A stretch of 62,629 bases of DNA from an uncultured Pseudomonadota bacterium (GTDB lineage Bacteria > Myxococcota_A > UBA796 > SXON01). The DNA lies in the NCBI GenBank assembly GCA_903921785.1, contig CAIXRH010000116.1, forward strand, positions 1 through 62,629, written 5' to 3'. Positions 23,914-44,026 of the stretch are shown one piece after another. Each line of letters opens with the position of its first letter. The first letter of the stretch is position 1. Made by a program: the position numbers and the translations under genes. Below the pieces are notes generated by a model. That model was not told where the DNA came from. It worked only from the letters and a program-made list of their open reading frames with translations, and searched no databases.

Positions 23914-23945
23914 CCCTCCCGGCCCTGCTCCACCGTCGCGAGCCA
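23914..23945 (-). repeat. 32-base intergenic repeat, copy A
   Basis: Read on the minus strand this is a tggctcgcgacggtggagc-type element. It lies between the stop of the DUF4760-like gene and the start of the lipoprotein gene. It matches three other intergenic copies, at 29468, 33880 and 43995, over 32 bases with a few differences. Confidence 0.7.
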
Positions 23946-23969
23946 CCACAACCGTCGGCGGCGCCGCCG

Positions 23970-24476
23970 CTACGGCTTCCACTTGCGGTGGGCGATGTGG
24001 GCCCCGATCTTCTTTCCGGGGCTGGGGAACTCGATCATCCGCTCGGCGAGCCACTGCATCCACTCGCCGTAGAAGACACCCTGCTCGGCGCGCCGCGCCA
24101 CCACGAAGGGCTCGAGCTTCGTCCAACTCCCGCGGATGTAGCCACCCATGAGGTCGTCCACGAGGTGGAGCGGGAGGATGCGGTGGTACACCAGCACGCC
24201 GAGGCTCTCGTAGACGTGACTCAGGGAGAGCACCGCCGAGAGCATCTCCGGATTATCACGGATGATCGCCGGATCAGCGCGATCGGGGAGCTGCATGATG
24301 AGCCGCACCGAATGGCTGAATCCGGGCGTCTGGATCGTGTGCACCAGCTCGCCGGCCGTAAACAGCGCCCGCGACTTGCGCATCTGGCGGATCTGCAAGA
24401 ACCCGAGGCTGATGGCGACGATGACGGACACGGCCGAGGCCATGTTCGCGATCGTCCCCAGGGCGATCATCTTCAT
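23970..24476 (-). CDS. Membrane-anchored hypothetical protein, DUF4760-like
   Basis: 168 residues. One N-terminal transmembrane helix (residues 5-27) is followed by IRQMRKSRALFTAGEL and a helical cytoplasmic part with LPDRADPAIIRDNPEMLSAV and RWSK-like Trp/Lys-rich ends. This layout resembles small DUF4760 proteins, but the assignment is tentative. The ATG directly follows the stop of the esterase gene with no gap, so it is the last gene of an operon with the SDR reductase and esterase. Confidence 0.6.
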   Translation of the reverse strand: MKMIALGTIANMASAVSVIVAISLGFLQIRQMRKSRALFTAGELVHTIQTPGFSHSVRLIMQLPDRADPAIIRDNPEMLSAVLSLSHVYESLGVLVYHRILPLHLVDDLMGGYIRGSWTKLEPFVVARRAEQGVFYGEWMQWLAERMIEFPSPGKKIGAHIAHRKWKP

Positions 24477-25691
24477 CTACAACCCCGCGAAGATGCCGAG
24501 CGGACGGCCGACGCGCGCGGCCCAGGCGACCTCGTCGTGGGTGGCGTTCGGCTCCCACCAGTGCCAGAGGTCCTCGTCGAAGGCGTAGCCCTCGGCGGCG
24601 AGGGTGTCGCGCATCTGGGCGGTCTCGCAGTAGTTGTCGGCGCTGTCGACGTCGTCGTCGTGGGTGCCGTCGCCGTCGGCGTCGGCGCAGGTGGTGCCGT
24701 AGCCGCCCGAGTCCAGGTAGATGGCGGTGTCCCGGTGACCGGCGCCGGTGTAGCGCTGGATCATGGTGTCGTTGTCGGCGCCGATGCTGCCCCAGCCGAG
24801 GGTGCCGCTCATGCTGGCCGCGAAGGTGAACTCTCCCGGGTAACGATCGGCGATGTGCAGGGAGATCAGCCCGCCGAGGGAGCTGCCGAGGAGCCCCACG
24901 CGGTCGGGCTCGCCGTAGTGCGCCTGGATGAGCGGCCGCACCGTGTCCTCGACGAAGGCGGCGTAGGCATCCCCCTGGCCACCATACCAGTCGCCCGTGT
25001 CGTCGATGTGGTCGGGGACATGGGTATATTCGTCGAACCGGGCGGCGGTGTTGTCGATGCCGACGATGAGCATGCCGGGGGGCGCGCTGTCCTGGAGGTG
25101 CCAGCCGCCCCAGATCGCGTCGGGGTCGAAGAGGTTCTGGCCGTCCTCGGCGTACAGCGCGTGGGTGACCGGCTCCGCGGGCACGAGCACCCGCACCGTG
25201 CGCGGGGCCATGGCGCCGTCGCCGACGGAGAACCAGCGTTCGAGGTGTGTTTCGTCGCTGGCGAACAAGCTGAGCTCGCCGTTTTCGTCGTACGTGAAGC
25301 GGCGCGACCACGGGTCGGCCACCCAGGCCGCTCCGTCGGTGAACTTGTAGCCGCCGTTGCGCCGTGCGTCGTGCACGAGCGCCCAGCATAGGCCGTCGCC
25401 GCAGGTCATCGGCTCGCCGGCCCACGCGTCGAAGTCGCCGGCGACGGACCACGCGCCGGTCGCGGCGTAGGCGAAGAACAGGCCCTCCTTGGTCTCGGCG
25501 GGCCACCCGGAGTCCGCCGAGATGCGGAGAAACGCAGCCTCCCCCTCCGCGTGCAGGGCCGCGACGAGCTCCTCGGCGGTCGGCCGGGTGTCTGCCGTGT
25601 CGTCCGGACAGTCCCACGTGCAGGCAAGCTCCGGCGTGTCCACGGTGTAGCCGTCGCACCCGAGCAGAAGGGGGACGAGGCCCCTGATCAT
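24477..25691 (-). CDS. Secreted esterase of the enterochelin-esterase/EstD type (lipoprotein)
   Basis: 404 residues from the ATG at 25691, which overlaps the upstream stop (ATGA). The short signal MIRGLVPLLLGC has a lipobox with Cys12. An N-terminal beta-domain (about residues 60-190; CBM48-like, as in enterochelin esterases) is followed by the alpha/beta-hydrolase domain. That domain has the nucleophile elbow GSSLGG, a later YLDSGG with Asp, and the C-terminal HDEVAW His. It therefore probably cleaves esters at the cell surface. A Ca-binding-like DADGDGTHDDDVD loop is also present. The siderophore link is by fold only; the native substrate is unknown. Confidence 0.8.
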   Translation of the reverse strand: MIRGLVPLLLGCDGYTVDTPELACTWDCPDDTADTRPTAEELVAALHAEGEAAFLRISADSGWPAETKEGLFFAYAATGAWSVAGDFDAWAGEPMTCGDGLCWALVHDARRNGGYKFTDGAAWVADPWSRRFTYDENGELSLFASDETHLERWFSVGDGAMAPRTVRVLVPAEPVTHALYAEDGQNLFDPDAIWGGWHLQDSAPPGMLIVGIDNTAARFDEYTHVPDHIDDTGDWYGGQGDAYAAFVEDTVRPLIQAHYGEPDRVGLLGSSLGGLISLHIADRYPGEFTFAASMSGTLGWGSIGADNDTMIQRYTGAGHRDTAIYLDSGGYGTTCADADGDGTHDDDVDSADNYCETAQMRDTLAAEGYAFDEDLWHWWEPNATHDEVAWAARVGRPLGIFAGL

Positions 25692-26455
25692 CCGGCGATG
25701 TCCTCGCCGCCATCCACCCGGAGGATGTTCCCGTTCACCCACCGCGCGCCGGGCCCGGCGAGGAGCACGAGGAAGTCCGCGACGTCCTCCGGCGTGGTGA
25801 GCCGCCCGCCGGGGTTGCGCGCCAACGCCTTCTCCACGAGCGCCTCGGACCCGGGGATCTTGCGAAGCGCCGGCGTCTCGGTGACGCCCGCGAGGATCGC
25901 GTTGGTGGTGATGCCCTTCGGCGCGAGCTCCACCGCGAGCTGCCGGCAGGTGGCCTCGAGCACCGCCTTCGCCGCGCTCACCGGCCCGTAGCCCGGCCAG
26001 ACCATGTGGGAGCCGCTGCTGGTCATCGCCCAGATGCGGCCGCCTTCGCCGAGGAGCCCCGCGTCCACCAGGTCTTGCGCCCAGTACACCAGCGAGCTGC
26101 CCATGACGTCGAGCGTCATCTCCATCTGCTTGCGGGTGACCTGCCGCGGCCCGGAGAACGGCGCGAGGGAGCCGAACGCGAGCGAGTGCAGCAGGCCGCG
26201 GACGCTGCCGGGCGGGCAGAGCTCGCGCAGCTTCGCCACGATCTCGGCCCGACTGGCGTCGTCCGCCGCGTTCTGGTTGAAGAAGTGCACCTGACGGCCG
26301 GTGGCCGACAGCTCGGCGAGCAGCGCGTCGATCGCCGGCTGGGCCGCGCGACGATCGAGGTGCACCCCGACGATGTCGAAGCCCACCCGGGCGAACGCAC
26401 GCGCCGCCGCGGCGCCGAACCCGGAGGAGGCGCCGAGGATGACGACGGTGCTCAT
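25688..26455 (-). CDS. Short-chain dehydrogenase, FabI/FabL-like enoyl-ACP reductase
   Basis: 255 residues. The N-terminal GASSGFG binds NAD(P)H. The active site is Y-x6-K (YGPVSAAK) rather than the usual Y-x3-K of classical SDRs. Y-x6-K is the hallmark of enoyl-ACP reductases FabI and FabL, which carry out the last step of each fatty-acid elongation cycle. The GGRLTTPEDVADFLVLLAG and NGNILRVDGG end is also family-like. A physiological enoyl reductase is likely but not proven. It is the first gene of a three-gene operon with the secreted esterase and the small membrane protein. Confidence 0.78.
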   Translation of the reverse strand: MSTVVILGASSGFGAAAARAFARVGFDIVGVHLDRRAAQPAIDALLAELSATGRQVHFFNQNAADDASRAEIVAKLRELCPPGSVRGLLHSLAFGSLAPFSGPRQVTRKQMEMTLDVMGSSLVYWAQDLVDAGLLGEGGRIWAMTSSGSHMVWPGYGPVSAAKAVLEATCRQLAVELAPKGITTNAILAGVTETPALRKIPGSEALVEKALARNPGGRLTTPEDVADFLVLLAGPGARWVNGNILRVDGGEDIAG

Positions 26456-26468
26456 GGACCCTCCGAGG

Positions 26469-27362
26469 CTACTTGCCCGCGGCCGGGGGGGCTTCCGCCG
26501 CGGGGGCGGCGCCCTCGGCGGGGGCCGGGGTCACGCTTGCGCCACCCGCCGCGGCGGCGGTGGCGTCGGTGATGGTCGCGGCCTTCTGGAGCTCCTCGAT
26601 GTACGCCTTCACCAGGTCGTCGCGGAGCTGGCCCTTGATCTTGTCCTTGACCTCATCGACCGGCACGGACTCGCGCTTGTCCTCGATCTCGATGATGTGG
26701 AAGCCGAACTTGGTCTCCACGAGGCCGAGCAGATCGCCCTTGTTGCCGGCGAAGACCGCGTCGGCGAATTCGGGGACCATGCGGTTCTTGTCGAACCAGC
26801 CGAGATCGCCGCCATCCTTCGCGGAGCCCTTGTCGATGCTCTTGGCGGTGGCGATCTCCCCGAACTTGGAGCGATCGGCCTTGAGCGCCTCAAGCGCCTT
26901 CTCAGCCTCGGCCTTGTCCTTCTTGTCGAAGAGGATGTGGCGGGCCTTGACCTGCGGGCGGGCGAACTGCACCGCGTGGTCGTCGTACCACTTCTTGATC
27001 GCGTCGTCCGTCATACGGGCGGTGACGGTGCGCTCGATGAGGGCGCTGGCGAGGGCGCCGCGCTCGGCGAGGGCGATCGAAGACTTGACCTTCGGGTCGT
27101 CCTGGAGCTTCTGCTTGAGCGCCTCCTGGTAGAGGACCTCGCCGATGACCACGTTCTCCTTGACCCGGTCCATCTGGCCGCGGGCCACGATCTGGTCCTT
27201 GGTCTCGGCGGGGAGCTGGTCGAGCTGGGCGTCCACCATGCCCTGGGTGACGTTCTGGCCGTTGACGACCTTGAGGACCTCCCCAGTGCGTTCGACCTGG
27301 CCGGGCACGGGGGGAGGCGGGGGCTCGCAGCCGACGAGCAGGAACGTGACGAGCGACAGCAT
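26469..27362 (-). CDS. Parvulin-type peptidyl-prolyl isomerase lipoprotein
   Basis: 297 residues. Signal MLSLVTFLLVGC with lipidation Cys12. A SurA-like helical N-terminal region (residues 30-130) precedes one parvulin domain, starting VKARHILFDKK and including GDLGWF and FGFHIIEIEDKRE. The tail is Ala/Pro-rich. It is expected to catalyse prolyl isomerisation and chaperone outer-membrane or secreted proteins (PrsA or PpiD/SurA role) on the periplasmic face. It stands 13 bases downstream of the SDR operon start region, on the same strand but with a separate upstream gap of 70 bases. Confidence 0.88.
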   Translation of the reverse strand: MLSLVTFLLVGCEPPPPPVPGQVERTGEVLKVVNGQNVTQGMVDAQLDQLPAETKDQIVARGQMDRVKENVVIGEVLYQEALKQKLQDDPKVKSSIALAERGALASALIERTVTARMTDDAIKKWYDDHAVQFARPQVKARHILFDKKDKAEAEKALEALKADRSKFGEIATAKSIDKGSAKDGGDLGWFDKNRMVPEFADAVFAGNKGDLLGLVETKFGFHIIEIEDKRESVPVDEVKDKIKGQLRDDLVKAYIEELQKAATITDATAAAAGGASVTPAPAEGAAPAAEAPPAAGK

Positions 27363-27421
27363 GGAATCCTCGGAAGCCCGCGCTCCTTACCGGTGAGGAC
27401 CCCGTCGTCAAGCGGCGCGAC

Positions 27422-27434
27422 GTATCGAGATGTC
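27422..27434 (+). repeat. Degenerate TGTATC-type pair at the end of the SpmAB-like gene
   Basis: GTATCG then GATGTC (27422-27434) straddles the stop codon of the SpmA-SpmB gene. It is a weaker member of the dispersed hexamer family. Confidence 0.3.
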
Positions 27435-28869
27435 AGGCGCCGCCCAACATCCACCGCACGAAGAACACTGCGGCGAGGATGCCGAGGAGCTCGCTGAGCA
27501 GCCCGACGGCCACGGCGTGCCGCACCCGCTTCACGCCCACGGTGCCGAAGTAGACCGCGAGCACGTAGAACGTCGTCTCCGTGGTGCCCTGCATCGTCCC
27601 GGCGAGGTGGCCGATGTACGTGTCGGGCCCGTAGGTGCGGGTGATGTCGGAAGCGAGGGCGAAGGCGCCGGAGCCGGAGAGCGGGCGGAGGAGGGCGAGG
27701 GGGATCACCTCCGGGGGGACGCCGACGACCTTGGCCGGGATGGCGAGGATCGAGACGACCCAGCCGAGCGCGCCGCTCGCCCGGAACATCGCCACCGCGA
27801 CCAGGATCGCCACCACGTACGGGATGATGCGCGTCGCGGAATTGAACCCTTCCTTCGCGCCCTCCATCAGCGACTCGTAGACCTTCACCTTCCGGGTGGC
27901 CCCGAAGAAGACCATCCCCCCGATGAGCACCGGGAGGATGTAGTAGGTGGCCTGCGGGTCCACCGCGACCCAGGCGCACAAGCCGAGGAGCCCGGCCGTG
28001 AACGCCCCGAAGGGGAGGAAGTCGCGGGGGCGGAGCGGCTCGGATTCCACGATCTCCGTCTCGCCGCCGGGGAAGAACCGCGCGAGCCACTTCGCGAGGA
28101 GCACGGCCACCAGGGTGGTGATGTGGCTCGCCGCGATGGTGGTCGGGAAGATCGCCGCCGGGTTCTTGCTGCCGAGCGCCGCGCGCACCGCCATCATCCC
28201 GGTGGGCAGGACCGCCAGCCCGGTGGTGTTGATGGCGAGGAAGAGCACCATGGCGTTGGTGGCGGTGCCCTTGTCCTTGTTGAGGGTGTCGAGCTCCTGC
28301 ATCGCCTTGATCCCGAACGGGGTGGCGGCGTTGCCGAGGCCGAGCATGTTCGCGGCGATGTTCATCACCATGGCGCCCATGGCGGGGTGCTTCGCGGGCA
28401 CGTCGGGGAAGAGCCAGAGCATGAACGGGCGGATGGCGCCGGCGATGAGGTCCAGCCCCCCGGCGGCCTCCACGACCTTCATCAGGCCAAGGAACAACGT
28501 CATCATCCCCACGAGGCCGATGGCCAGCTCGACGCCCTTCTTCGCGGCGTCCACCGCGCCGTCGGAGACGAGCTTCATCTTGTGCTCGTCGTTGAACCGG
28601 ACGACCGCGGCCCCGTCCGGGGCGATGGTGCGGACCGTGGCCGTCGGCGGTTCGCCCGGGTTCGCGGCAGCCTTCACCGCGGTGACGGTGCCGGAATACT
28701 CCACCCCGCCGACCTCCACGCGCGCCTCTGCGCCCACCTTCACCAGCGAGTCCACTTCCAGGGGGACCTCGTTGTCCCAGCCCTTCACCGCGGCCTCGTG
28801 GCCGGGCGCGCCGGTGAAGCCAGCGACGACGACGCTCAGCAGGACCAGGGCGGTGAAGACGATGTTCAT
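27433..28869 (-). CDS. SpmA-SpmB fusion membrane protein with inserted soluble domain
   Basis: 478 residues. Spore-maturation proteins SpmA and SpmB, which are usually two genes, are joined here. The SpmA half starts with one helix ending GFTGAPG, is interrupted by about 75 soluble residues, and resumes AAKKGVELAIGLVGMMTLFLGLMK. It contains NIAANMLGLGNAATPFGIKAM, a signature of the family. The SpmB half follows from about residue 300, with ALLRPLSGSGAF and MQGTTETTFYVLAVYFG. Both halves belong to the nucleoside-recognition/Gate fold. In non-sporulating bacteria the role is unknown, perhaps transport. The inserted domain is odd. Confidence 0.85.
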   Translation of the reverse strand: MNIVFTALVLLSVVVAGFTGAPGHEAAVKGWDNEVPLEVDSLVKVGAEARVEVGGVEYSGTVTAVKAAANPGEPPTATVRTIAPDGAAVVRFNDEHKMKLVSDGAVDAAKKGVELAIGLVGMMTLFLGLMKVVEAAGGLDLIAGAIRPFMLWLFPDVPAKHPAMGAMVMNIAANMLGLGNAATPFGIKAMQELDTLNKDKGTATNAMVLFLAINTTGLAVLPTGMMAVRAALGSKNPAAIFPTTIAASHITTLVAVLLAKWLARFFPGGETEIVESEPLRPRDFLPFGAFTAGLLGLCAWVAVDPQATYYILPVLIGGMVFFGATRKVKVYESLMEGAKEGFNSATRIIPYVVAILVAVAMFRASGALGWVVSILAIPAKVVGVPPEVIPLALLRPLSGSGAFALASDITRTYGPDTYIGHLAGTMQGTTETTFYVLAVYFGTVGVKRVRHAVAVGLLSELLGILAAVFFVRWMLGGA

Positions 28870-28930
28870 GGCTGGGGAACCTATGGCCTCGACGCGTCAA
28901 GAGCGAGCCGCATTCGCGCGCGAAGGGGAT

Positions 28931-28932
28931 TA
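28931..28932 (+). promoter_or_regulatory. Putative leaderless -10 core (TA at N10) of the TlpA-like gene
   Basis: ATTAGG followed by 8 bases then GTG at 28943, with TA exactly 10 bases before the start. The spacing supports the GTG rather than the ATG two bases before it, which is followed at once by TGA. Confidence 0.4.
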
Positions 28933-28942
28933 GGCTCCCCAT

Positions 28943-29437
28943 GTGAAGCGACTCCTTCAAGACTGGGCCATCGCCATCGGCGTGGCCCTCGCGCTCATCG
29001 CGGGCGCCTCCGTGCTCGACCATGTCAACCGCCCCTCGGGCACCGCTCCGCCCCTGGCGTTGGTGAACGTGGCTGGAGGAAAGGTCGATCTCCACGAGTA
29101 CGCCGGCAAGGTGGTGGTGGTGAACTTCTGGGGGAGTTGGTGCCCGCCGTGCCGGGCGGAGATTCCCGAGATCAGCAAATGGTCCGCGGAACATCCCGAC
29201 ATTCCGGTGCTCGGGGTGGCGGTGAACAGCGGCGGCGGCGCCCGCCTGAAGTCCGACGCGGAGAAGCTCGGCATCACCTACACCGTGCTCGAAGGCACCA
29301 ACCAGGTGGTGGACGACTGGAAGGTCGATGCGTACCCGACCACCTTCGTCATCGGCGCCGACGGCGACATCAAGGCCGTCCGTGCCGGCCGCATCGACCT
29401 CGACGAGCTCCAGGCGCTGGTCAAGCAGGCGGGGTAG
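28943..29437 (+). CDS. TlpA/ResA-like membrane-anchored thioredoxin
   Basis: 164 residues from GTG 28943. One N-terminal anchor helix, then a thioredoxin fold with WCPPC redox motif in VVVVNFWGSWCPPCRAEIPE. The cis-Pro YPTTF segment is also present. It is expected to reduce disulfides outside the membrane, for example in cytochrome c maturation; c-type haem proteins do occur in this window. It is divergent from the SpmAB-like gene (73 bases). The downstream repeat (copy B) lies between it and the next convergent gene. Confidence 0.88.
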   Translation: MKRLLQDWAIAIGVALALIAGASVLDHVNRPSGTAPPLALVNVAGGKVDLHEYAGKVVVVNFWGSWCPPCRAEIPEISKWSAEHPDIPVLGVAVNSGGGARLKSDAEKLGITYTVLEGTNQVVDDWKVDAYPTTFVIGADGDIKAVRAGRIDLDELQALVKQAG

Positions 29438-29467
29438 TCGAGGGGGGAGGAGGCACATTTTGCCCTG

Positions 29468-29499
29468 CCCTCCCGGCCCCGCTCCACCGTCGCGAGCCA
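29468..29499 (-). repeat. 32-base intergenic repeat, copy B
   Basis: Located between the convergent TlpA-like gene and the 29513 gene. On the plus strand it reads ccctcccggccccgctccac and then the same end as copy A; on the minus strand tggctcgcgacggtggagcg, then gggccgggaggg. Confidence 0.7.
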
Positions 29500-29512
29500 G
29501 GAGCGGCGTCGG

Positions 29513-30190
29513 CTAGGGCGCCGCGGGAGTTTGCGCCGGCCGCGGCACCCGCGACGCCCGGCGGTCGTCCCAGGTGGTGCCCCAATTCAGGCCGATGGAC
29601 CACTGGTTCCCGGGGTCGGGGAGGGCGGGCGCGGCGTTGTAGAACTCCCAGCCGACGTAGGCGCCGAAGCCGAGCCAGATGCGGCGCCATTCGGCGCGAA
29701 CGCCGCCGTCCAACGTGTAGAGGCCGGAGTCGGCGCGCCGGAACACGGTGTAGAACGACGTCTCCAGGTCGGTGAGGTGGTCGCCGACGGGGATCGGAAC
29801 CCGATTGCCCCACTCCAGCCAGGGCTCCAGCGCCGGCGTGCTGCCGTCGAGCGGGTTGGCCAGCGCCATGCCTACGGCGACGTGCATGGAGCCGAACCCA
29901 CCGCGGAGGCCCGCGCTGAGCCGCAGCGGGTCGGGCACCTGGTAGCCGCCGTCGATCCGGAAGGTCCACTCCCGCCAGTCCACCCGCGCCTGCCCGGCGA
30001 ACCCGAGGCGTCCGGCGCGCCCCGACGCCGCCGCGGTGTCGGACTGCGCGAACGACGGGCCGACCGACACCTCCGCGAACGCCGGCATCCACGCGGTGGT
30101 GAGCCCGTCCTGGTACGCCGCCTCCTGCGCGGGCGCCACGGGAGGCGCCGCGAACGCGGGGAGCGACAACGTGACGAGCAGCAGCGACAT
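29513..30190 (-). CDS. Exported outer-membrane-type beta-barrel protein
   Basis: 225 residues from the ATG at 30190; signal peptide MSLLLVTLSLPAFAAP. Alternating hydrophobic strands rich in Gly, Trp and Tyr (for example FRIDGGYQVPDPL, LGFGAYVGWEFYNAAP) suggest a small outer-membrane barrel. An in-frame extension to 30313 exists but precedes the signal peptide and looks non-coding. No family recognised. It is 163 bases from the ferric-reductase-like gene upstream, in which I see only GC-rich sequence. Confidence 0.65.
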   Translation of the reverse strand: MSLLLVTLSLPAFAAPPVAPAQEAAYQDGLTTAWMPAFAEVSVGPSFAQSDTAAASGRAGRLGFAGQARVDWREWTFRIDGGYQVPDPLRLSAGLRGGFGSMHVAVGMALANPLDGSTPALEPWLEWGNRVPIPVGDHLTDLETSFYTVFRRADSGLYTLDGGVRAEWRRIWLGFGAYVGWEFYNAAPALPDPGNQWSIGLNWGTTWDDRRASRVPRPAQTPAAP

Positions 30191-30352
30191 CCGGGCCTCC
30201 GCACCAGGGTATCCGGTGCGGTGGCCGCCGGAGCGCTGAGGGTGGGTCAACGCGCAACCGTGCGCTCGTTGCCGGTCGGTTGAAGCGCCGAGGGTGGGGA
30301 TGCGCACCCGCATCGCTCCGACCGGCGCGGCCCTGGCCCCCCAAAGCCGGAG

Positions 30353-31015
30353 CTACGCCGTCGGTTTGACCCGCACCGGCTGCGGCCCCGCGGGGCCCGA
30401 CGCGACCGCCGTCGCGCCCAGCGGCAGCCCTGCGCCGCCCGCCCGCGCCAGCGCCTTGCCGCCCTTCGCCGCGCCGCCGTCGTTGTCCATCGCCACCAGG
30501 ATCCGCTGCGCCGTCGCGCCGATGAGCACCGCGGCGGTGGCATATACGGCGGCCTTCACCGGCCAGATCGCCATGTCCGTGCCCCCGAGGACCGTGTGGG
30601 CGACCGCGAGGACCCATGCGCCGAACGAGAGCGCGTGCAGCGCACGCCACACCTCCGGCCGCCACGACGCCTTCGTCAACGACGACACGACCAGCCCGCC
30701 AAAGCCCCACATCGCGATCGTGCCGACCGTGATGACCCCGCGCATCGTCGGCGACACCAGCGGGACCAGCACCGCCATCGCGGGAATCCCCCCTTCCGGC
30801 GCGAGGACCGCCGCCAACGCGTGGACCAACGCCGCGCCGAGGCCGACCACCGCCCATTGTTTGTGCAGCTCCGCCGCGCTCGCGATGTGCAGCCAGCCTC
30901 CAGAGCCCTTCGCGGAGACGCTCACGCCGAAGAACATCGCGAACCAGAGCGCGCCGTAGGCGACGAGACCCGTCACGCGGCAGGCCCACCAGAGGAAGGG
31001 AAGCGAGATCAACAT
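30353..31015 (-). CDS. Ferric-reductase-like di-haem transmembrane protein
   Basis: 220 residues with about six transmembrane segments. Two histidine pairs fit b-type haem ligation across neighbouring helices: LHKQWAVVGLGAALVHAL and LHALSFGAWVLAVAH, the spacing seen in ferric-reductase-like (YedZ/Nox-type) membrane domains. It lacks the FAD/NADPH-binding domain, so electrons must come from a partner. The start overlaps the ApbE stop by 7 bases, so it is in the same operon as the flavin transferase. A Lys/Ala tail follows the last helix. Confidence 0.75.
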   Translation of the reverse strand: MLISLPFLWWACRVTGLVAYGALWFAMFFGVSVSAKGSGGWLHIASAAELHKQWAVVGLGAALVHALAAVLAPEGGIPAMAVLVPLVSPTMRGVITVGTIAMWGFGGLVVSSLTKASWRPEVWRALHALSFGAWVLAVAHTVLGGTDMAIWPVKAAVYATAAVLIGATAQRILVAMDNDGGAAKGGKALARAGGAGLPLGATAVASGPAGPQPVRVKPTA

Positions 31016-31842
31016 GCGACGGCTCCGGGGTTGCTGGTCCACCAACGGCCTTCATCATCACCGAGCCACGCGGTCTGTCCGGGTCGCTCGAAACGTTCGG
31101 CGAGCTCCGGACGGACCAGGATCGCCTTGGCCCAGGTCTCCGCCTGCGTGGCCGTTCGCGCCGTGGTGGTCACCGTGTGCACCGGGCCGAGCACGGGCGC
31201 GCCGGTGGCGGGGTCGAGCAGGTGGTGCACCAGCCGGCCATCCTCAGCGAACCACCTACGCTCCAGGGTGGAGGAGGTGGCGACCGCGGCGTCGACGAGC
31301 TCGATGGCGCCGCCGTCCGGCAGACCGATCGCCCAGGGCGGGCCGAACCCCCGCAGATCGCCGGCCCCGTCCACCAGTCCGGCCTTCGCGCCGGCGGCTC
31401 GCAACCACACCACCAGCTGGTCGACCGCCCAGCCCTTGCCGATCCCGCCGAGATCGAGGCTCCCCCGGCCGTGCAGCCGCACGCGGTTGCCAGAGACGTC
31501 CACGACCAGCACCGAGCGGCCCGTCGGGGCACGACCGCGGCGACCGGCGAGCGTGTCGAGCGGGGCGCCGTAGCCCCAGGCGGTCAGCTCGTCGCCGAGG
31601 GTGGGGTCAAAGGCGCCGTCGGTCTCCTGCCGCGCCCGGATCGCCGCAGCCGCGACGCAGGCGAGGATCGGGTCCTCGCAGGTGCGCTCGCGGTTGAGCC
31701 GGGAGAGCGCAGAGTCGGGGCGGAAGCGGGAGAGCGCGGCTTCGATCTTCTCCACCTCGGCGACAGCGCCGTCGAGGAGGTCGCCGCGGTCGGTGCTCAC
31801 CCACCACTCCCCGCCCATCGCGTCGAACGCCCGCTCGGTCAT
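31009..31842 (-). CDS. apbE: FAD:protein FMN transferase (ApbE)
   Basis: 277 residues. ApbE covalently links FMN through a phosphoester to Ser or Thr of target flavoproteins (for example RnfG or NqrC type), outside the membrane. Signs are N-terminal AMGGEWWVS, FDPTLG, LDLGGIGKGWAVDQL and the C-terminal HHLLDPATGAPV region with DGA...TATQAETWAKA. No signal peptide is clear. The start overlaps the preceding small gene's stop (ATGA). No neighbouring protein shows the D-x-[ST]-[GA]-x-[ST] flavinylation motif, so the target lies elsewhere or is unusual. It is in a tight operon with the ferric-reductase-like protein. Confidence 0.88.
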   Translation of the reverse strand: MTERAFDAMGGEWWVSTDRGDLLDGAVAEVEKIEAALSRFRPDSALSRLNRERTCEDPILACVAAAAIRARQETDGAFDPTLGDELTAWGYGAPLDTLAGRRGRAPTGRSVLVVDVSGNRVRLHGRGSLDLGGIGKGWAVDQLVVWLRAAGAKAGLVDGAGDLRGFGPPWAIGLPDGGAIELVDAAVATSSTLERRWFAEDGRLVHHLLDPATGAPVLGPVHTVTTTARTATQAETWAKAILVRPELAERFERPGQTAWLGDDEGRWWTSNPGAVAC

Positions 31843-32529: not shown

Positions 32530-32550
32530 GGATGCCTCCTGGTCACGCTC

Positions 32551-33633: not shown

Positions 33634-33634
33634 C

Positions 33635-33844: not shown

Positions 33845-33879
33845 CGCGCCTCCCGCGTCCGAATCAACGACGTGGGTCC

Positions 33880-33911
33880 TGGCTCGCGACGGTGGAGGAG
33901 GGCCGGGAGGT
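33880..33911 (+). repeat. 32-base intergenic repeat, copy C
   Basis: tggctcgcgacggtggagga then gggccgggaggt, in the divergent space between the SET operon and the gene at 33953. Similar bases also precede it (gacgtgggtcc), as in copy D. Confidence 0.7.
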
Positions 33912-33940
33912 GGGACCCCATCTCTCCTCCCCTCGCCGGA

Positions 33941-35437: not shown

Positions 35438-35558
35438 GCTGCGGATCGGCGTGGGCGTGCGCGACGCAGCGCCATTCTCCCCTCCGCGGCTCCTCGACCG
35501 CCGACGCCCACCGCGCGGCACGCCGGCGCTCCCGCGCCGCTCCCTCGCCACCCCGACC

Positions 35559-36863: not shown

Positions 36864-37531
36864 CGTTGCCGATCCTCGATCACGTACCCGACGCCGCGGA
36901 CGGTGTGGAGCAGCGGCTGGTCGAAGCCCTTGTCGACCTTGGAGCGGAGGTAGCTCACGTACACATCTACCGTGTTCGTGCCTGGGTCGTGCGTGGTGTC
37001 CCACACGGCCTCGAGCAGGCGGGTGCGGCTGATCACCCGACCGCGGTGCTCCACGAGGTACCGCAGGAGGTCGAACTCTCGGGCGGTGAGGCGGAGCTCC
37101 GTGGCGCCGCGTTGTACGCGGCGAGCGGCGACGTCGATCTCCAGGTCGCCGACCCGCAACACGTCGACGCCGCGAGAGCGGCGGGTCACCGCCTCGATGC
37201 GAGCGAGGAGCTCGTCGAACGAGAAGGGCTTGACGAGGTAGTCGTCGGCGCCGCCCTGCAGGCCCTCCACCCGCTCCTCTACGCGGTCCCGCGCGGTGAG
37301 GCAGATGGCGGACAGCGTGACCTGCTTCCGGCGCACCTCGCGGATCAGGCTGAGCCCGTCTCCGTCGGGGAGCATCCGATCGACCAGCAGGAGGTCGTAT
37401 TCGGCCAGGTCCACGGCCGAGCGGGCGGCGGCGAGGTCCGCCGCGACGTCCACCCGGTGGCCTTCGTCGCTGAGCCCCCGTTGCAGGAAGCCAGCGATCT
37501 TTCGCTCGTCTTCAACGACCAGGATCCGCAT
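36860..37531 (-). CDS. OmpR-family response regulator
   Basis: 223 residues. Receiver domain with acidic pocket (VEDER) and phospho-acceptor Asp in LLLVDRMLPDGDG, the switch Thr and KPFSFDELLARIEA Lys. The C-terminal winged helix (LTAREFDLLRYLVEHRGRVISR, then VDVYVSYLRSKVD and HTVRGVGYV) matches OmpR/PhoB-type DNA binding. It is cotranslated with the upstream haem protein gene (TGATG) and the downstream kinase (GTGA), so all three are one operon. Confidence 0.93.
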   Translation of the reverse strand: MRILVVEDERKIAGFLQRGLSDEGHRVDVAADLAAARSAVDLAEYDLLLVDRMLPDGDGLSLIREVRRKQVTLSAICLTARDRVEERVEGLQGGADDYLVKPFSFDELLARIEAVTRRSRGVDVLRVGDLEIDVAARRVQRGATELRLTAREFDLLRYLVEHRGRVISRTRLLEAVWDTTHDPGTNTVDVYVSYLRSKVDKGFDQPLLHTVRGVGYVIEDRQR

Positions 37532-38085
37532 CAGCGCTCCTCGCGCTCCTCGCGCTCTTCGCGTTCTTCCCGCTCTTCGCGCTCGCGGGCCTCGCCGCGT
37601 TCGCCCGCCTCACCGCGTTCGCCGGCCTCGCCGCGTTCGCCGGCCTCGCCGGCCTCGCCGCCTTCCCCGGCGCCGAGGCTCCGCTCCAGCCCGTCCACCA
37701 GCTTTTTCCGATCGGCCGGGGTGAGCGCCGCTTCGGGGTGCATCAGATCGTAGCCGCCCATGGGCATCTCCCCCTTGGACACCTCCTCGCTGGCGTCTTC
37801 GGCGGCTTCCCAGCCCACGTCCCACTCGGTGAAGTTCAGCGTCTCACGCCCCTCGTCCACGTGGTTCTGCACGAACCAGGAGACCGGGGCGATGTTGCTG
37901 TACCAGGGCCACTTCGTCTGGTTGCTGTGGCAGTCGAAGCAGGCGCCGACGACGAGCTTGCGCGTCTCCGGGGAATCCCACTGAGGTTCGACGTCCTTGG
38001 TGGGGTTGGTGTGGTCCCGACCGTAGGGCACCAGTTGGATGCCGAGGACCAGACCGACGATGCCGAGGATGATGCGCTTGCCCAT
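37531..38085 (-). CDS. Haem-binding (CxxCH) protein with Arg/Glu repeat tail
   Basis: 184 residues. One N-terminal anchor helix, then a small domain with a CFDCH haem c motif in GACFDCHSNQTKWPWYSNIAPVSWFV, matching the Haem_bd (PF14376-type) family, and a distal MPMGGYDLMHP segment. The last 48 residues are GEAGERGEAGER and REEREER repeats encoded by imperfect 9-base units. It is the first gene of an operon with the response regulator and sensor kinase, so it may be a redox sensor or accessory input to that system. The tail is like the one in the ApbE operon gene at 32131. Confidence 0.85.
   Translation of the reverse strand: MGKRIILGIVGLVLGIQLVPYGRDHTNPTKDVEPQWDSPETRKLVVGACFDCHSNQTKWPWYSNIAPVSWFVQNHVDEGRETLNFTEWDVGWEAAEDASEEVSKGEMPMGGYDLMHPEAALTPADRKKLVDGLERSLGAGEGGEAGEAGERGEAGERGEAGERGEAREREEREEREEREEREER
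37534..37677. repeat. Imperfect 9-base repeats encoding the Arg/Glu tail
   Basis: Units such as gcgctcctc, gcgctcttc and gcctcgccg in frame at the 3' end of the haem-protein gene. The pattern resembles the array at 32134-32304. Confidence 0.75.
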
Positions 38086-38169
38086 GAACTCTCTCCGTAC
38101 TCCCCAACCGTAGGATGGCCACCTTGGACCCAGCCGGGGTCGAACATTGGAAGATGATTGGAACCCGCT

Positions 38170-38727
38170 TCAGGGAGCGGGCGCCGCCACCGGGCGGGCG
38201 TCCTGCGCCTGCGCCTCCTCGAGGGTGAGCCCGAGGTGCCGACGAAGCGAGGCGTTGTGGGCGCGGATCAGCTCATCCGCCACCTCGAGGGTGTAGTAGT
38301 GATCCACCGTGCGGTGGTTGACGATCTGCACCCACACCGGCGACGAATCGGGCGCGCCGCCGGGCTGCGGCACCGTGTCGGTCGGCCCCAGGGAGCCGTC
38401 GTTGTCCGCGAAGCCGGCGCCGGCGGTGATGAGCAGCGCCACGACCGTGAGCGCCGTGTTCGTGCCTTTGGCCTTGTCCTCTTCCCGATCAAACCGGGCC
38501 TGCATGCCGCGGTCGTGCGCGCCGGCGGCGAAATCTTCGGCCGAGACCATGTGGCCACCACCGTCGAAGACCGCCCACTCCACCGGGGCCAGCTTCGGGT
38601 CCCACCGCTCGGTGAGCACCACCCCGGCACCCACTACGGAGAAGGACGAGCGAAGCCAGCGTTCCGACGAGTATTCTTCGACGGCTGCGGGCGTGGCCGC
38701 GAGCGCCGCGGCGAGCAGGAGCACCAT
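38170..38727 (-). CDS. Exported hypothetical protein
   Basis: 185 residues from the ATG at 38727: signal MVLLLAAALAATPA, then a domain including SVVGAGVVLTERWDPKLAPVEWAVF, an acidic DREEDKAKG patch and one possible transmembrane segment (ALTVVALLITAGAGF). The C-terminal half is helical and His-containing (VNHRTVDHYYTLEV). No family recognised. The in-frame extension upstream of 38727 overlaps TesB and is not credible. Confidence 0.55.
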   Translation of the reverse strand: MVLLLAAALAATPAAVEEYSSERWLRSSFSVVGAGVVLTERWDPKLAPVEWAVFDGGGHMVSAEDFAAGAHDRGMQARFDREEDKAKGTNTALTVVALLITAGAGFADNDGSLGPTDTVPQPGGAPDSSPVWVQIVNHRTVDHYYTLEVADELIRAHNASLRRHLGLTLEEAQAQDARPVAAPAP

Positions 38728-38812
38728 CACCCACCTCTCAACCGCAAGGTAATCGCCGGGCGCGCCGCGACCGGAGAGACCGGTGGATCGGTAAGGTCGT
38801 GCCGGACGTGAG

Positions 38813-39628
38813 TCAGCGCGGCGGCGGCAGCCGGGAGAATTCGGCCACCAGCTGCCGCCCGACGAGGGCGAGCTGCCCGTCCGGCGCCCAGAGCCGCTGG
38901 GTGGTGTCGGCGCATCCGTCGGACGCCCCTTCGACCTCCGACTCGAAGCGCCACCACGCCGAGCCGGGGTGGGTGCGCAGCGGCGTGTGCACCTGCACCA
39001 GCCAGAGAACCGTGGACGCGGGCGTCGGCGCGTGGGTGAGCGCGAGCACCGGGGCCGGCCACGCATCGAGCATCGCGACCTGGGTGAGCGGGTCGGCCGC
39101 TCCCTCCCGGGGGCGCACCCAGCCGCCGGCGCCGGGACGATCCGCGCCGGAGGAGGGGATCGGGTGATCCCCCCAGCGATAGACGAACTTCTTGGTGAAC
39201 GCCGGGGTGAGCCCTTCGAGGAACGGGAGCTCTACCCTCCCCTCTGGACCCTCGGCCACGGGCGCAGACGCGGAAGCCACGTGGATGCCCGTCGCCCGCG
39301 GCACGGCGAAGATCGCCATGACCAGTGCGCACACCCGCTCGCCCTGCATCACCCGCGCTTCAAGGTGCGAGGTGGCCTTGCCCTGGTGGAGCACCCGGGC
39401 GATCACCTGCACTTCGCCCACCTCGGCGGGGGTGACAAAATCCATGGTGAAGCTGCGTAACGGGCGATCGTCGCCCACCAGCTCCCCGCAGGCCCGCAGC
39501 GCGAAGACCGCGACCAGGCCCCCGAACGCCGTGCGGCCCTGCCCCCAGTCGGCGGTGACCTCGGCGCGCCAGTGGCCCGGCCGGATCGGGTGGAGCGCGC
39601 TGGCCTCGGCAAAAGCGGTGGACGACAT
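38813..39628 (-). CDS. Acyl-CoA thioesterase, TesB-like
   Basis: 271 residues. A double hot-dog thioesterase: the first half starts HPIRPGHWRAEVTADWGQGRTAFGG, with a VTPAEVGEVQVIARVLHQGKATSHLEARVMQG strand pattern; the second contains ADPLTQVAMLDAWPAPVLA and VLWLVQVHTPL, with the Asp/Thr/Gln set usual for TesB-type enzymes. It hydrolyses acyl-CoA to free acid and CoA in the cytoplasm. The start ATG is only 24 bases from the divergent recX start; the two share a central TATA (39639-39642), each with TA 10 bases before its own start. Confidence 0.85.
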   Translation of the reverse strand: MSSTAFAEASALHPIRPGHWRAEVTADWGQGRTAFGGLVAVFALRACGELVGDDRPLRSFTMDFVTPAEVGEVQVIARVLHQGKATSHLEARVMQGERVCALVMAIFAVPRATGIHVASASAPVAEGPEGRVELPFLEGLTPAFTKKFVYRWGDHPIPSSGADRPGAGGWVRPREGAADPLTQVAMLDAWPAPVLALTHAPTPASTVLWLVQVHTPLRTHPGSAWWRFESEVEGASDGCADTTQRLWAPDGQLALVGRQLVAEFSRLPPPR

Positions 39629-39638
39629 CGGCCCCGCG

Positions 39639-39642
39639 TATA
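39639..39642. promoter_or_regulatory. Shared bidirectional leaderless -10 core (TATA) between TesB and recX
   Basis: The sequence GCGTATATCTCG places one TA exactly 10 bases from the TesB ATG (minus) and the next TA exactly 10 bases from the recX ATG (plus). The two starts are 24 bases apart, so both transcripts would be leaderless. Confidence 0.5.
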
Positions 39643-39652
39643 TCTCGACCGG

Positions 39653-40201
39653 ATGCCGCGCCCCGCCCGTCCGCTCACCCCCGAGTCCGTCCGCGCGGCC
39701 GTGCTCGACTACGTCCAGCGGTTTCCCGGATCGGTGGCGAACACCCGCCGACGGTACCTGCTGAAGATCAACCGCGCCGTCACCGAGCTCGAGCTGGAGC
39801 GTGAGCCGCTGGTCGCGGCGTTGGAGGCGGCGATTGAAGTGTCGCTGCGCTACGGCTACCTCGACGACGCGAAGTTCGCCGAGGGCCGCGCGCGCCGGGC
39901 GCTCGCCCGGGGGGTTGCGCCGGCGCGGGTGAGCGCGGGCTTGTCGTCGAAGGGGGTGTCTTCCACGGTGGCAAGGGCGGGGATCGCCGCGGCCACCGAG
40001 GGCAATCCGCAGGTGGAGGCGTGCGCCGCCTACGTGCGCCGCCGGAAGCTCGGGCCGTGGCGCCCCCCGGAGAAGCGTGCTGCGGAGGCGATGAAGGACC
40101 TCGCGAAGGTGGCCCGCGCGGGCTTCCCGTTCGACGTGGCCCGGGCCGCGCTCCGGGCCGACGCGCTGGACGACCCGCCGGACGACGCGTCCGAGGAGTG
40201 A
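39653..40201 (+). CDS. recX: RecX-family recombination regulator
   Basis: 182 residues. RecX proteins bind the RecA filament and inhibit or modulate it. The tandem three-helix repeats show typical motifs: YVQRFPGSVANTRRRYLLKINRAV, RYGYLDDAKFAEGRARRALARG and the GLSSKGVSSTVARAGI unit, with a final GFPFDVARAAL. It is divergent from TesB over 24 bases; no recA is nearby. The start ATG was chosen because it follows the shared TATA core and begins MPRPARPLTPESVRAAVLDYV. Confidence 0.75.
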   Translation: MPRPARPLTPESVRAAVLDYVQRFPGSVANTRRRYLLKINRAVTELELEREPLVAALEAAIEVSLRYGYLDDAKFAEGRARRALARGVAPARVSAGLSSKGVSSTVARAGIAAATEGNPQVEACAAYVRRRKLGPWRPPEKRAAEAMKDLAKVARAGFPFDVARAALRADALDDPPDDASEE

Positions 40202-40203
40202 TA
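40202..40203 (+). promoter_or_regulatory. Putative leaderless -10 core (TA at N10)
   Basis: GATAGT then 8 bases then ATG at 40214; TA exactly 10 bases upstream and right after the recX stop. Confidence 0.35.
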
Positions 40204-40213
40204 GTTCGCCCCC

Positions 40214-40984
40214 ATGGCGACCCCGCCCCCCACCCTCTACGGCTGGCAGAACGAACCGCTCCCGTTCACGATGGCGGTGCCGCTCAACGCCCCCAAGGCC
40301 GTCGGCGTGGTCTTCCCCGGCGCGGCGTACACCCAGGATCGTCCGCTGTGCACCATCGCCAAGGACGTGATGGTGGCCGCGGGCGCGGAGGTGATCCTCT
40401 CCACGCGCTACTACGGGATGGACCCGAAGCTCAGCGCGCTCACCGGCGACGACCGTGAGGCCTGTCTCGCGACGGACAGCGGCGGCTACGCCCGGGGGGC
40501 GTTCACCCGCGCGGCCGGAAAGCCGGTCTTGCTCGCGGGCAAGTCCATCGGCACCACCGCCCTCGCGCACGCGCTCACCCAGGTGCCCGACCTCGTGGCC
40601 GGCTGGTCGGTGTGGCTCACCCCGTTGTGGAAGGACGAAGCGGTCTTCAAGGCGATCGCCACGGCCGGCGCCCGGGCCTACGTGCTCATCGGCACGGCCG
40701 ACCCGCAGTGGGACCCCGCGATCCTCGAAGCGCTCAACAAGAAGGCGATGAAGGTGGCGAAGTCGCTGCCCACTGTGAAGGTGGTCGACGGAGCGGACCA
40801 CGGGATGAGCGTGGCGGGCAACCCGGTGGCCACGGCGGCGGTGCTCACGGAGCTCCGTCCGGCGTTGGCGGCACACTTCGCGGCGGCGATGGCGGCGGCG
40901 GCGGCGGCGGGCACGGCGGTCGGGGCGCCTGCTTCAGGGACGACACCCCCGGGAACGACGACGACGCCGACCCCCACGCCTTAG
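40214..40984 (+). CDS. Alpha/beta-hydrolase-fold protein
   Basis: 256 residues, no signal peptide. Ser111 in GKSIGT is the likely nucleophile, Asp near residue 166 (GTADPQWD) and His in GADHGMSV complete a triad. The N-terminal half starts PKAVGVVFPGAAYTQDRPL, a typical hydrolase strand. The last 40 residues are Ala- and Thr/Pro-rich low complexity. The exact family is uncertain (possible dienelactone-hydrolase-like or peptidase-like member). It ends near the FG-GAP gene, which is convergent. Confidence 0.7.
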   Translation: MATPPPTLYGWQNEPLPFTMAVPLNAPKAVGVVFPGAAYTQDRPLCTIAKDVMVAAGAEVILSTRYYGMDPKLSALTGDDREACLATDSGGYARGAFTRAAGKPVLLAGKSIGTTALAHALTQVPDLVAGWSVWLTPLWKDEAVFKAIATAGARAYVLIGTADPQWDPAILEALNKKAMKVAKSLPTVKVVDGADHGMSVAGNPVATAAVLTELRPALAAHFAAAMAAAAAAGTAVGAPASGTTPPGTTTTPTPTP

Positions 40985-41162
40985 GGCGCGCCGGGAGCTC
41001 CGTCCGGGTGGGCGGGGGGTCCGCGATCGAGCGGGTCTTTTTGGGGCACGGGAACCGCCTCCCCGGAGCGCCGGCCGCCTCCGCTCCCGCTCCCGCGCGG
41101 GCAGCGGTCCCTCGGGCAGCGGCCTCCGCCGCGCGTGCCCGACCCGGAGGCTCGCTCCCCGG
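40985..41162. other. GC-rich convergent intergenic space
   Basis: No gene, repeat copy or clear terminator is seen in this 178-base gap apart from a short TTTTT after GTC (about 41036-41041). Confidence 0.4.
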
Positions 41163-43127
41163 CTACTTCATCACCACCTTGTACGTGAACTTCACCCCCT
41201 CGGGTGCGCCCTTGTAGGGGTAGAACCGCCAGCTCAGGAGCACGGGCTGGACCACGGCGAAGACGGCGGGATCGCAGATGCGCGCCTCGACGCGCGTCGG
41301 CACCCCCTCCGAGTCCATCGTGATGTTCACCACGCAGGACCGGGACGACTCGCCCGGCGGAAGCGGAATCGCGGGTAGGGTCGTCTTCGTCTTCACCAGC
41401 ACCTCCGACCAGTGGACGGTCTTCGGGCCCGTGGCGGGCAGGGCGCTGGCGCCCGGGGTCACGCCCCCGAGGACGCCGCCCACCACCCCGCCGGCCGCGG
41501 CGGCGTCGGTCGCGGGCCGGGGCGGCCGCGCGTGGGCCGGCGCGGCGTCCCAGGTCCAGGCGGCGCCGCTGAAGACGCGAACTTCGTCCTGGCTCATCAC
41601 CGGGAGGCCGAGCTCCCCGCCGAGGCGGGTGGGGGTGAGGGCGAGTCGGGCGTCGTCGGGGAGTCGGACCGCCTTCCCCGCCTCCATCCCCGGGAGCCAC
41701 ACCCGCACCTCCCGGCGATCGGTGGAGACCACCGCGCCCCCGGGCGCCTCGGGCAGCGGGGCCACGACGGCGTCCCCCTCGAGCCCTGCCCTCGCCAGGC
41801 CGACGCTCCACAGCCGCGCCCCGGCGAGCGAGTAGCCGACGAGGTGGTCGAGGTTCTTGAGCGGGTCCCGGTAGCGCGCGACGACGTCGCGCTTCCCGTC
41901 GCCGTCCAGGTCCAGGGCGCCGAGGGGATCGCGGAGCCCCTCGGCCCACTCGCCGACGACGGGCAGCACATTCGGCTGGCCGCCGGCCTTGGCGCCAAGG
42001 ACCAGGAGGATCGCGCCGCGGCCGTCGCCGAAGCCGTCCAGCGTGAGGGCGAGGTCGTCGGTGCCGTCCCCGTCCACGTCCCCGAGCGCGGCGAGCTGCT
42101 TGACGGCCTGCGGGAGCGCCAGGGTGGCCGGAGTTTGCCCGTCGCCGACCGACATCGTCAGCGTGGACCCGCTCGCCCACACCAGCTCGTTCCTCCGGTC
42201 GCCGTCGAGGTCGAGGGCGGTGTACACGACGCTCCCGTGGAGCGCAGCGGGGGCCGCCGCGGCCCGCGCGGGGTCCCCGCCCGACCACACGGACCACGCC
42301 GGCCCGCCCTGGACCAGGACGTCCGTGCGCCCGTCCCCGTCGACGTCGCCGACGTCGCGCACGACGAACTTCGTGTCGAGCCGTCGGGCGGGGCGCCCCG
42401 CGCCGTCCAGGAGCTCGCCGGACGCGAGGAGGAGGTCGGCGTGACCGTCGCCGTCGAGGTCCCCGGGGACGAAGCCCTTGCCGCCGGGCGAGCGGGCCGG
42501 CCAGCCCGACACCGCGAGCCCCGCGAGGGACGCTCGCAGGCGCTGGCGCTCCGCCTCCCGCTCGGCGGGCACGTCGTGGGTGGCCGCCTCCGCCCACGCC
42601 TCGAACACCTTCACCTCACTCCCCTGCACCACCGCCACCACCGACCAGACCTTTCCGCTGGCCGCGATCCCCAGCGCGCGCGGCGGGGCGCCCGCCTCGC
42701 AGGCCAGCGGCACGCTGGCGAGCGTGCGGGCGCTCTCCCGGTAGGGCCAGAGGGCGGCCACCTCGGACGCGGCGTGGGGGCTGAGCGTGAACGAACGCGC
42801 CGCCCCCGACACGTGGCACCCCGCCGCCAACCGGGCCCAGGCCTCGGCCGCCTCGGTCAGATCGCGCTTGTGCCAAGGGTCCATGGTGAAGGCGCGGAAG
42901 GCAAGGAGCTTGCCCTCCTCCCCGGAGGCGCGCCCGCGCCCGAACGCGGCGATGCCCTCCTTATGGGCGTAGACGCCCCACGCCGCGCCGTGGACCCACT
43001 CGTCGGGGTCCGCCCCCGCCTTGAGGTGGGTCAGGAGCTCCGCGGCGGCCTTCTCCGCCGGGAGGTCCGCGGAGGGGCGGGAAGACTGCGCAGCAGCGAT
43101 GCCGGCCCAGAGCCAGACGAACGTCAC
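41163..43127 (-). CDS. Secreted FG-GAP/VCBS-repeat protein with TonB-like C-terminal domain
   Basis: 654 residues from GTG 43127 (MTFVWLWAGIAAAQS, signal peptide). An N-terminal helical part (about 30-130) is followed by several FG-GAP-like beta-propeller repeats with Ca-binding DxDGDGxxD loops (GDLDGDGHADLLLA, GDVDGDGRTDVLV, GDVDGDGTDDLAL, LDLDGDGKRDVVA). After a Gly/Ala-rich linker, the C-terminal 100 residues look like a TonB C-terminal-type fold (CVVNITMDSEGVPTRVEARICD, SWRFYPYKG). It is last in the envelope operon that includes the lipoprotein at 43911. Confidence 0.75.
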   Translation of the reverse strand: MTFVWLWAGIAAAQSSRPSADLPAEKAAAELLTHLKAGADPDEWVHGAAWGVYAHKEGIAAFGRGRASGEEGKLLAFRAFTMDPWHKRDLTEAAEAWARLAAGCHVSGAARSFTLSPHAASEVAALWPYRESARTLASVPLACEAGAPPRALGIAASGKVWSVVAVVQGSEVKVFEAWAEAATHDVPAEREAERQRLRASLAGLAVSGWPARSPGGKGFVPGDLDGDGHADLLLASGELLDGAGRPARRLDTKFVVRDVGDVDGDGRTDVLVQGGPAWSVWSGGDPARAAAAPAALHGSVVYTALDLDGDRRNELVWASGSTLTMSVGDGQTPATLALPQAVKQLAALGDVDGDGTDDLALTLDGFGDGRGAILLVLGAKAGGQPNVLPVVGEWAEGLRDPLGALDLDGDGKRDVVARYRDPLKNLDHLVGYSLAGARLWSVGLARAGLEGDAVVAPLPEAPGGAVVSTDRREVRVWLPGMEAGKAVRLPDDARLALTPTRLGGELGLPVMSQDEVRVFSGAAWTWDAAPAHARPPRPATDAAAAGGVVGGVLGGVTPGASALPATGPKTVHWSEVLVKTKTTLPAIPLPPGESSRSCVVNITMDSEGVPTRVEARICDPAVFAVVQPVLLSWRFYPYKGAPEGVKFTYKVVMK

Positions 43128-43131
43128 GGCT

Positions 43132-43911
43132 TCACCGGGCCGGCTGCGCTTCCGGCGCCCCGCTCAGGTCGAGCACCTTCACGATCGCGCCGGGAGGCGG
43201 CTCCAGCGCAAACGCGGCGTCGGCGGGGGAAGCGGCCTGCCAGGCGTCGAACCGCACGTCGGCGCTGGCGCCGAGCGTGGGCAGCTTCACCCGCAGCGCG
43301 GTGGGGCTCGCGGCGGGCTCCCAGGCCCCGGAGAAGAGGACCACGCCCTGGGCGTCGGTGGCCCGCGCGTCGACCAGATGGCCGTAGCGGCTCTCGAAGC
43401 CCGCGGTGAACGCCGCGCCGTCCGCGCGGGTCCACGCCGCGGTGGCGACGGGCCCGACCGCGGTCAGCGTGGGCGGCGTGGTCAGCTCGGGGAGGCGGCC
43501 CAGCAGCAGGCTGGTGGCCACCGCGGCGCCGCGGAGACCCTCGCCGCCGGCGAGCAGCCGCCCGAGCGTGCCGTCCGCGTCGTCGGCCCGGTAGTAGGTG
43601 TTCTTCGGCGCGATGAACGCCGACACGTCCTTGCCGTTGCAGGTGACGATCACCTGGGCCGGGCCGATGGGGCCGCGCAGCTCCACCCGAAACCGGTCCG
43701 GCGGCGCGACCACCAGCGTGCCCGAGAGGGACATGCTCTGCTGGGGCGTGGTGAGCACCGCGGAGAACTGGGCGAACGCCGGGACGGGCGCGGCCTCGGC
43801 GCGGGCGCGGGCGAGGAGCGCCGCCGGATCGGCGACGTCGGGCGCGGGCGGGGCGACCGGGTGGCAGCCGGCGAAGAGGAGGGCGGCGGCGAGGGCGAAG
43901 CGAAGGTGCAC
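43132..43911 (-). CDS. LolA/DUF4292-like lipoprotein
   Basis: 259 residues from GTG 43911, with signal MHLRFALAAALLFAGC and lipidation Cys16. The mature part is beta-rich: FSAVLTTPQQSMSLSGTLVVAPPDRFRVELRGP fits a LolA/LolB- or DUF4292-type half-barrel that carries lipid or lipoprotein, followed by TYYRADDADG and VKLPTLGASADVRFDAW. It probably has a transport or lipid-binding role in the periplasm. The FG-GAP gene starts 4 bases downstream of its stop, so they are one operon. A TA lies exactly 10 bases before the GTG. Confidence 0.65.
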   Translation of the reverse strand: MHLRFALAAALLFAGCHPVAPPAPDVADPAALLARARAEAAPVPAFAQFSAVLTTPQQSMSLSGTLVVAPPDRFRVELRGPIGPAQVIVTCNGKDVSAFIAPKNTYYRADDADGTLGRLLAGGEGLRGAAVATSLLLGRLPELTTPPTLTAVGPVATAAWTRADGAAFTAGFESRYGHLVDARATDAQGVVLFSGAWEPAASPTALRVKLPTLGASADVRFDAWQAASPADAAFALEPPPGAIVKVLDLSGAPEAQPAR

Positions 43912-43921
43912 GGTGGCGGCG

Positions 43922-43923
43922 TA
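43922..43923 (-). promoter_or_regulatory. Putative leaderless -10 core (TA at N10) of the LolA-like gene
   Basis: GATTAC on the minus strand; TA exactly 10 bases before GTG 43911. Confidence 0.35.
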
Positions 43924-43994
43924 ATCCGGTGAGGAGAACGCGGCGCCGCCCCGGCCCCGCGGGCCTGCCGCAGCGGCGTCGCCGACGTGGGTCT

Positions 43995-44026
43995 TGGCTC
44001 GCGAGGGTGGAGCGGGGCTGGGAGGG
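43995..44026 (+). repeat. 32-base intergenic repeat, copy D
   Basis: tggctcgcgagggtggagcg then gggctgggaggg, in the 144-base space between two minus-strand genes. Bases gacgtgggtc before it match copy C. Confidence 0.7.

Follow-up and report, generated by a model that had tools for sequence, protein, structure and literature searches.

The four intergenic copies of a short repeat in the 62,629-nucleotide stretch of DNA analyzed here (the window) are members of a family of ~53-bp units, which we named F1. On balance, we favor a reading of F1 as a REP-like, non-coding mobile unit, probably not autonomous, most of whose copies have settled in the 3′ untranslated zone of genes. The distribution of F1 is best read as that of an element with low copy number in the genus that has expanded in this species.

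Copies and structure of the F1 unit

A sequence-only reading had reported four copies of a 32-base repeat, all lying between genes, and the core 31-mer was found again at each of these places. Core mismatches are given relative to TGGCTCGCGACGGTGGAGCNGGGCCGGGAGG.

23908..23960 (-): F1 copy A, positions -15 to +37 of the unit; core 23915-23945(-), 0 mismatches
28943..29437 (+): AhpC/TSA (peroxiredoxin/thioredoxin-like) gene, Pfam PF00578, E 2e-20; copy B at its 3′ end
29462..29514 (-): F1 copy B; core 29469-29499(-), 0 mismatches
33865..33917 (+): F1 copy C; core 33880-33910(+), 1 mismatch
43980..44032 (+): F1 copy D; core 43995-44025(+), 2 mismatches
44056..44832 (-): gene without a Pfam match; copy D at its 3′ end, in the common orientation

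Independent gene calls, based on codon usage, trained on the same genome and used for the counts of F1 placement below, put copies A and D between tandem genes, copy B between convergent genes and copy C between divergent genes, in agreement with the sequence-only reading. An origin as coding remnants was rejected on the same gene calls, and so was a chance origin, with no match in 100 shuffles of the window or in the reversed controls.

The repeat is not confined to the window. A genome-wide pattern search (7.48 Mb) retrieved 178 copies of the 31-mer at up to 3 mismatches, 89 on each strand, while the reversed pattern, serving as a control, gave none. Further statistics on F1 in this genome are based on a 1.14-Mb sample of it (~72% G+C), which was in part picked around F1 copies. 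Raising the limit from 3 to 4 and 5 mismatches increased the number of copies in this sample only from 74 to 77 and 79, and control matches appeared only from 6 mismatches. There is hence no long tail of decayed copies; nearly all lie within 3 of 31 mismatches.

The unit extends beyond the 32 bases originally delimited, with information rising at position -15 (CGCCGACG) and fading near +37. It consists of GCCGACGYYKGTCNTGGCTCGCGASGGTGGAGNNGGGCCGGGAGG and a 3′ type from a small set (GGGAAC, TGGGACC, TGAACCCA, TCAGCGCA, GCAGGGCA or TGAGCCTA). The consensus of the 74 copies reads CGCCGACG-YYK-GTC-N-TGGCTCGCGA-S-GGTGGAG-NN-GGGCCGGGAGG, then the 3′ type. The segment GGCTCGCGA is invariant in all 74 copies, GGGAGG is nearly so, and 60 of 73 have an exact GAC-N4-GTC. 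The GACGTGGGTC noticed ahead of the core in both C and D is there because GAC-GNNN-GTC belongs to the unit and only its middle is variable. Minor types in the same genome keep both ends and carry a swapped middle module, e.g. CGTTCCTGCCGAGAC or CGCCCCTGCACCACC. Variable positions are tightly linked inside the 3′ block (31-38) and mostly unlinked outside it. Head-to-head inverted pairs number one or two.

The analysis lends no support to the proposed conserved RNA structure, since folding was no better than that of shuffled sequences and covariation was absent from the helix-like block GCC GAC N4 GTC NT GGC. The mean folding z was -0.2 for the strand first written and +0.7 for the opposite strand, the flanks did not pair with the element (t about -0.6 for GGGAGG against the locus flank), and membership in Rfam was not supported. 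One pair, +32/+36, covaries (56 G-C, 14 C-G), but does so through two linked 3′ types, possibly representing two events. The conservation of F1 resides in its primary sequence, not in a structure. A G-quadruplex was also rejected: the G-runs occur only in the main type and are broken by the middles of the other types of this genome and of the relatives.

Repeated sequence is common in this DNA, with over 40% of the gaps of at least 50 bp in the 1.14-Mb sample holding some. The window contains two further families. F2, unrelated to F1, is ~75-85 bp long (...GGTCGAGGAGCCGCCGGGGCGAGAATGGC) and lies at about 18979-19060(+) and 35470-35544(-). It has 41 intergenic matches in the sample, 27 of them with a same-strand gene end upstream (median 20 bp), and a structured RNA finds weak support at best. 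A composite of F1 and F2 was rejected, a clear F2 lying just upstream of only 3 of the 74 F1 copies. F4 (GACGGTTCACGG...CCGGCGCCTGAC...GCGCCGACGNNGGTCTGGCGCC), at about 55514-55610(+) upstream of gyrB and directly preceded by an F2-like GAGAATGGCG at 55480, has nine intergenic copies in the sample, mostly just past an opposite-strand stop, and has the block GCCGAC-N4-GTC in common with F1. Finally, a subset of F1 copies is continued on the 3′ side by a longer common stretch (TTTGCACGGGCAAGCC...GGTTTGCTCCCTCC; window 23860-23910, L002, L024, L052 and L081), perhaps another gene-end repeat.

Placement behind stop codons

The sequence-only reading had placed the copies in all kinds of gap, which holds, but it had missed a positional rule: most copies lie in one orientation, directly 3′ of a stop codon. 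In 50 of 73 copies, the 3′ side of F1 points toward the 3′ end of a gene on the opposite strand, at a median distance of 31 bp. An opposite-strand stop lies within 70 bp in 43 of 73, against 16.7% expected from random placement in gaps (p 5e-16), and the mirror position is occupied by 17 copies, compared with the 43 in the common one. On three large contigs chosen regardless of F1, 8 of 10 copies obey the stop-codon rule.

Two of the window copies follow this orientation. Copy B occupies the whole of a 75-bp convergent gap, its complement strand beginning ~23 bp past the stop of the AhpC/TSA gene, and the complement strand of copy D begins ~22 bp past the stop of the gene at 44056-44832(-). 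The exceptions are copy A, which lies 9 bp past the stop of a DUF4760 gene (23970-24476(-)) but on the same strand as that gene, and copy C, in whose divergent gap the gene starts are uncertain.

As the complement of the strand first written starts just past stop codons, it is most likely the natural reading strand of F1. Read in this direction, the stop codon is followed by sequence poor in C, in which a T-run is frequent, and then by CCTCCC...TCGCGAGCCA...CGTCGGC. TTTT precedes the complement-strand F1 in 24% of cases, against 1% in control gene ends, and the element itself opens with the C-rich stretch CCTCCCGGCCC.

Relatives of F1 and a possible role as a transcript-end signal

At up to 3 mismatches, F1 has no match in 57 relatives, and with 178 copies here it has therefore expanded in this lineage. 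A covariance model did retrieve weak matches in genomes of the same genus, which have the same ends (TGGCTCGCGACG...CGGGAGG) and another 12-bp middle. The exact gapped pattern of their framework, cTGGCTCGCGACG-N12-CGGGAGG, has five copies in the sister species G006 and three in its fellow G009, with none for the control in either; a low-copy relative is probably also present in G002. Among the places listed for G006 and G009, 8 of 11 end 6-37 bp from an opposite-strand stop. G006 also has an abundant intergenic repeat of its own, well over 100 bp long (GGCCTCCAAGCTTCGCTTTCCGGCC; e.g. L139, L168 and L180), in which a single gap has as many as 15 partners within 0.4 Mb.

Orthologous sites were compared for three genes in these two sister species. 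In both, ybeY and an esterase gene are each followed by an F1 relative, and the relative is absent from those ends of the two genes that were readable in other members of the genus. At ybeY, the unit is near-identical over ~40 bp in the two species; beyond it the alignment is poor and different genes follow. In G009, the core of the esterase copy is damaged and reads TCATGA. Behind the malic enzyme gene, the relative is present in G006 and absent in G009, the flanks being too divergent to reveal a clean empty site. These comparisons indicate a history of long-term gain and loss within the genus, most copies being constrained while present.

Outside the genus, the sole match in a public collection of genome contigs was CAIKTR010000121.1 (L031), from an Opitutae MAG. 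It was rejected as an outside occurrence: over 6 kb it shows 100% identity to our contig G000:C121, and it is therefore a contig of this very species that looks misbinned. Searches of viral contigs and of phages gave no match, and a Burkholderia replicon gave one weak match covering 70% of the query. In line with the sequence-only reading, no named family was found for F1.

Part of this evidence would also suit a cis-acting transcript-end signal, i.e. a Rho-type terminator or a site for 3′-end protection or processing, that is selected gene by gene and spreads only secondarily. We regard this as possible, but tentatively so. The strand and the distance past stops are fixed in the species as well as in the genus, the ybeY copies have stayed near-identical despite their poorly aligning surroundings, and the C-rich start of the complement strand has a T-run and a C-poor stretch just ahead. 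Against this, the fold is no stabler than that of shuffles and the layout of an intrinsic terminator is absent, while the C-richness is gone in other types and in relatives. Most orthologous genes lack F1, the malic enzyme copy is confined to one of the two sister species, and the core of one of the esterase copies is damaged. A bolder form of the idea, in which F1 would be a modular transcript-end cassette, that is, a genus-wide 3′-UTR element with fixed ends, a 12-bp middle and a 3′ type that can both be swapped, and a directional, RAYT-independent placement, acting as a terminator or 3′-end signal, appears unlikely to us. We rank a mobile repeat tolerated at gene ends above a transcript-end signal, and it may possibly have a side role as the latter.

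Proposed mobility and comparison with known repeats

The mobile-unit reading has points against it too. The missing tail of decayed copies and the weak linkage between most variable positions would also be expected from selection on each copy, and of the four window copies two, A and C, depart from the orientation rule. The flanking duplications proposed as a check were absent at every tested pair of F1 borders. The search for a linked transposase led to four Y1_Tnp (RAYT-like) genes in the genome (L126, L127, L128 and L129; 77-84% alike as DNA), which carry a different repeat, GGGGTCAGGCCGATCGC, unlike F1. It stands as an inverted pair upstream of all four genes and is also dispersed, with about ten copies in the 1.14-Mb sample. 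By contrast, no F1 copy lies within 1.5 kb of these genes, and only two were found within stretches of 8-12 kb. Three proteins encoded between close F1 copies were rejected as an autonomous partner: one is a clostripain-like peptidase, another matches PQQ_2 weakly, the third has no match, and none is a transposase. As there was no clean empty site, target duplication or linked transposase, we infer the mobility of F1 rather than observe it.

The suggested REP/BIME or miniature type holds in part: F1 is high-copy and intergenic, but has no palindrome, GTAG tag or RAYT link. REPs are palindromes of 20-40 bp, tagged GTAG or CGTC and located mostly downstream of coding regions (Di Nocera 2013, PMC3733652). 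With REPs, BIMEs and REPINs, F1 has in common more than 100 short intergenic copies and a species-specific expansion (PMC3733652; Nunvar 2010, PMC2817692; Bertels and Rainey 2011, PMC3116915), as well as subfamilies with swappable inner parts and a placement mostly past coding regions. It differs in having, instead of a 20-40 bp palindrome, only the short block GCC-GAC-N4-GTC-NT-GGC. It also lacks GTAG, and CGTC occurs only inside this block on the complement strand, not as an unpaired tag. Furthermore, F1 consists mostly of single copies that follow a strand rule. That the resident RAYT genes are flanked by the other repeat is a further difference, but not a decisive one for CGTC-type REPs, which apparently have no dedicated transposase (PMC3733652). 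Failing on palindrome, tag and RAYT link, F1 is REP-like, not a REP.

That F1 is a classical REP/BIME relying for its movement on the resident RAYT (Y1 tyrosine) transposases is accordingly very unlikely. The four genes are present, the copy number and placement are REP-like, and the one or two head-to-head inverted pairs would fit, but all four genes have the unrelated inverted repeat and F1 has neither GTAG nor a long palindrome. F1 and GGGGTCAGGCCGATCGC are both dispersed and intergenic in one genome, yet their sequences are unrelated and only GGGGTCAGGCCGATCGC is paired and inverted upstream of the RAYT genes. As F1 neither resembles GGGGTCAGGCCGATCGC nor flanks these genes, it is not their evident partner.

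MITEs and modular repeats such as BOX, ERIC and NEMIS are short, non-coding, dispersed and modular, and often lie beside genes. F1 is like them in all these respects. It differs from MITEs in lacking a target duplication, in having ends that are not inverted copies of each other, and in its length of ~53 bp compared with the 70-300 bp given for MITEs.

A putative double-strand binding site of a sequence-specific (nucleoid or regulatory) protein is highly improbable: conservation in primary sequence, including the block GAC-N4-GTC and the invariant GGCTCGCGA, and even strand use would agree with it, but the strand rule relative to genes and the handful of copies in the sister species would remain unexplained.

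If F1 is a mobile unit, as we favor, it would move by an enzyme probably other than the resident RAYT. It would persist at gene ends because its insertion is tolerated or mildly useful there, perhaps helping to end or protect transcripts. Read on the complement, its most likely natural strand, the order is a stop codon, usually 10-60 bp of intervening sequence, and TTCCC (or a different 3′ type)-CCTCCCGG...TCGCGAGCCA..GAC..CGTCGGC.

F1 is thus a countable, directional gene-end repeat that shares its genome with a RAYT system evidently serving another repeat, which makes it a good case in which to study how REP-like repeats that lack a dedicated transposase spread. It is also suited to the question of whether gene-end placement arises from target choice or from selection.
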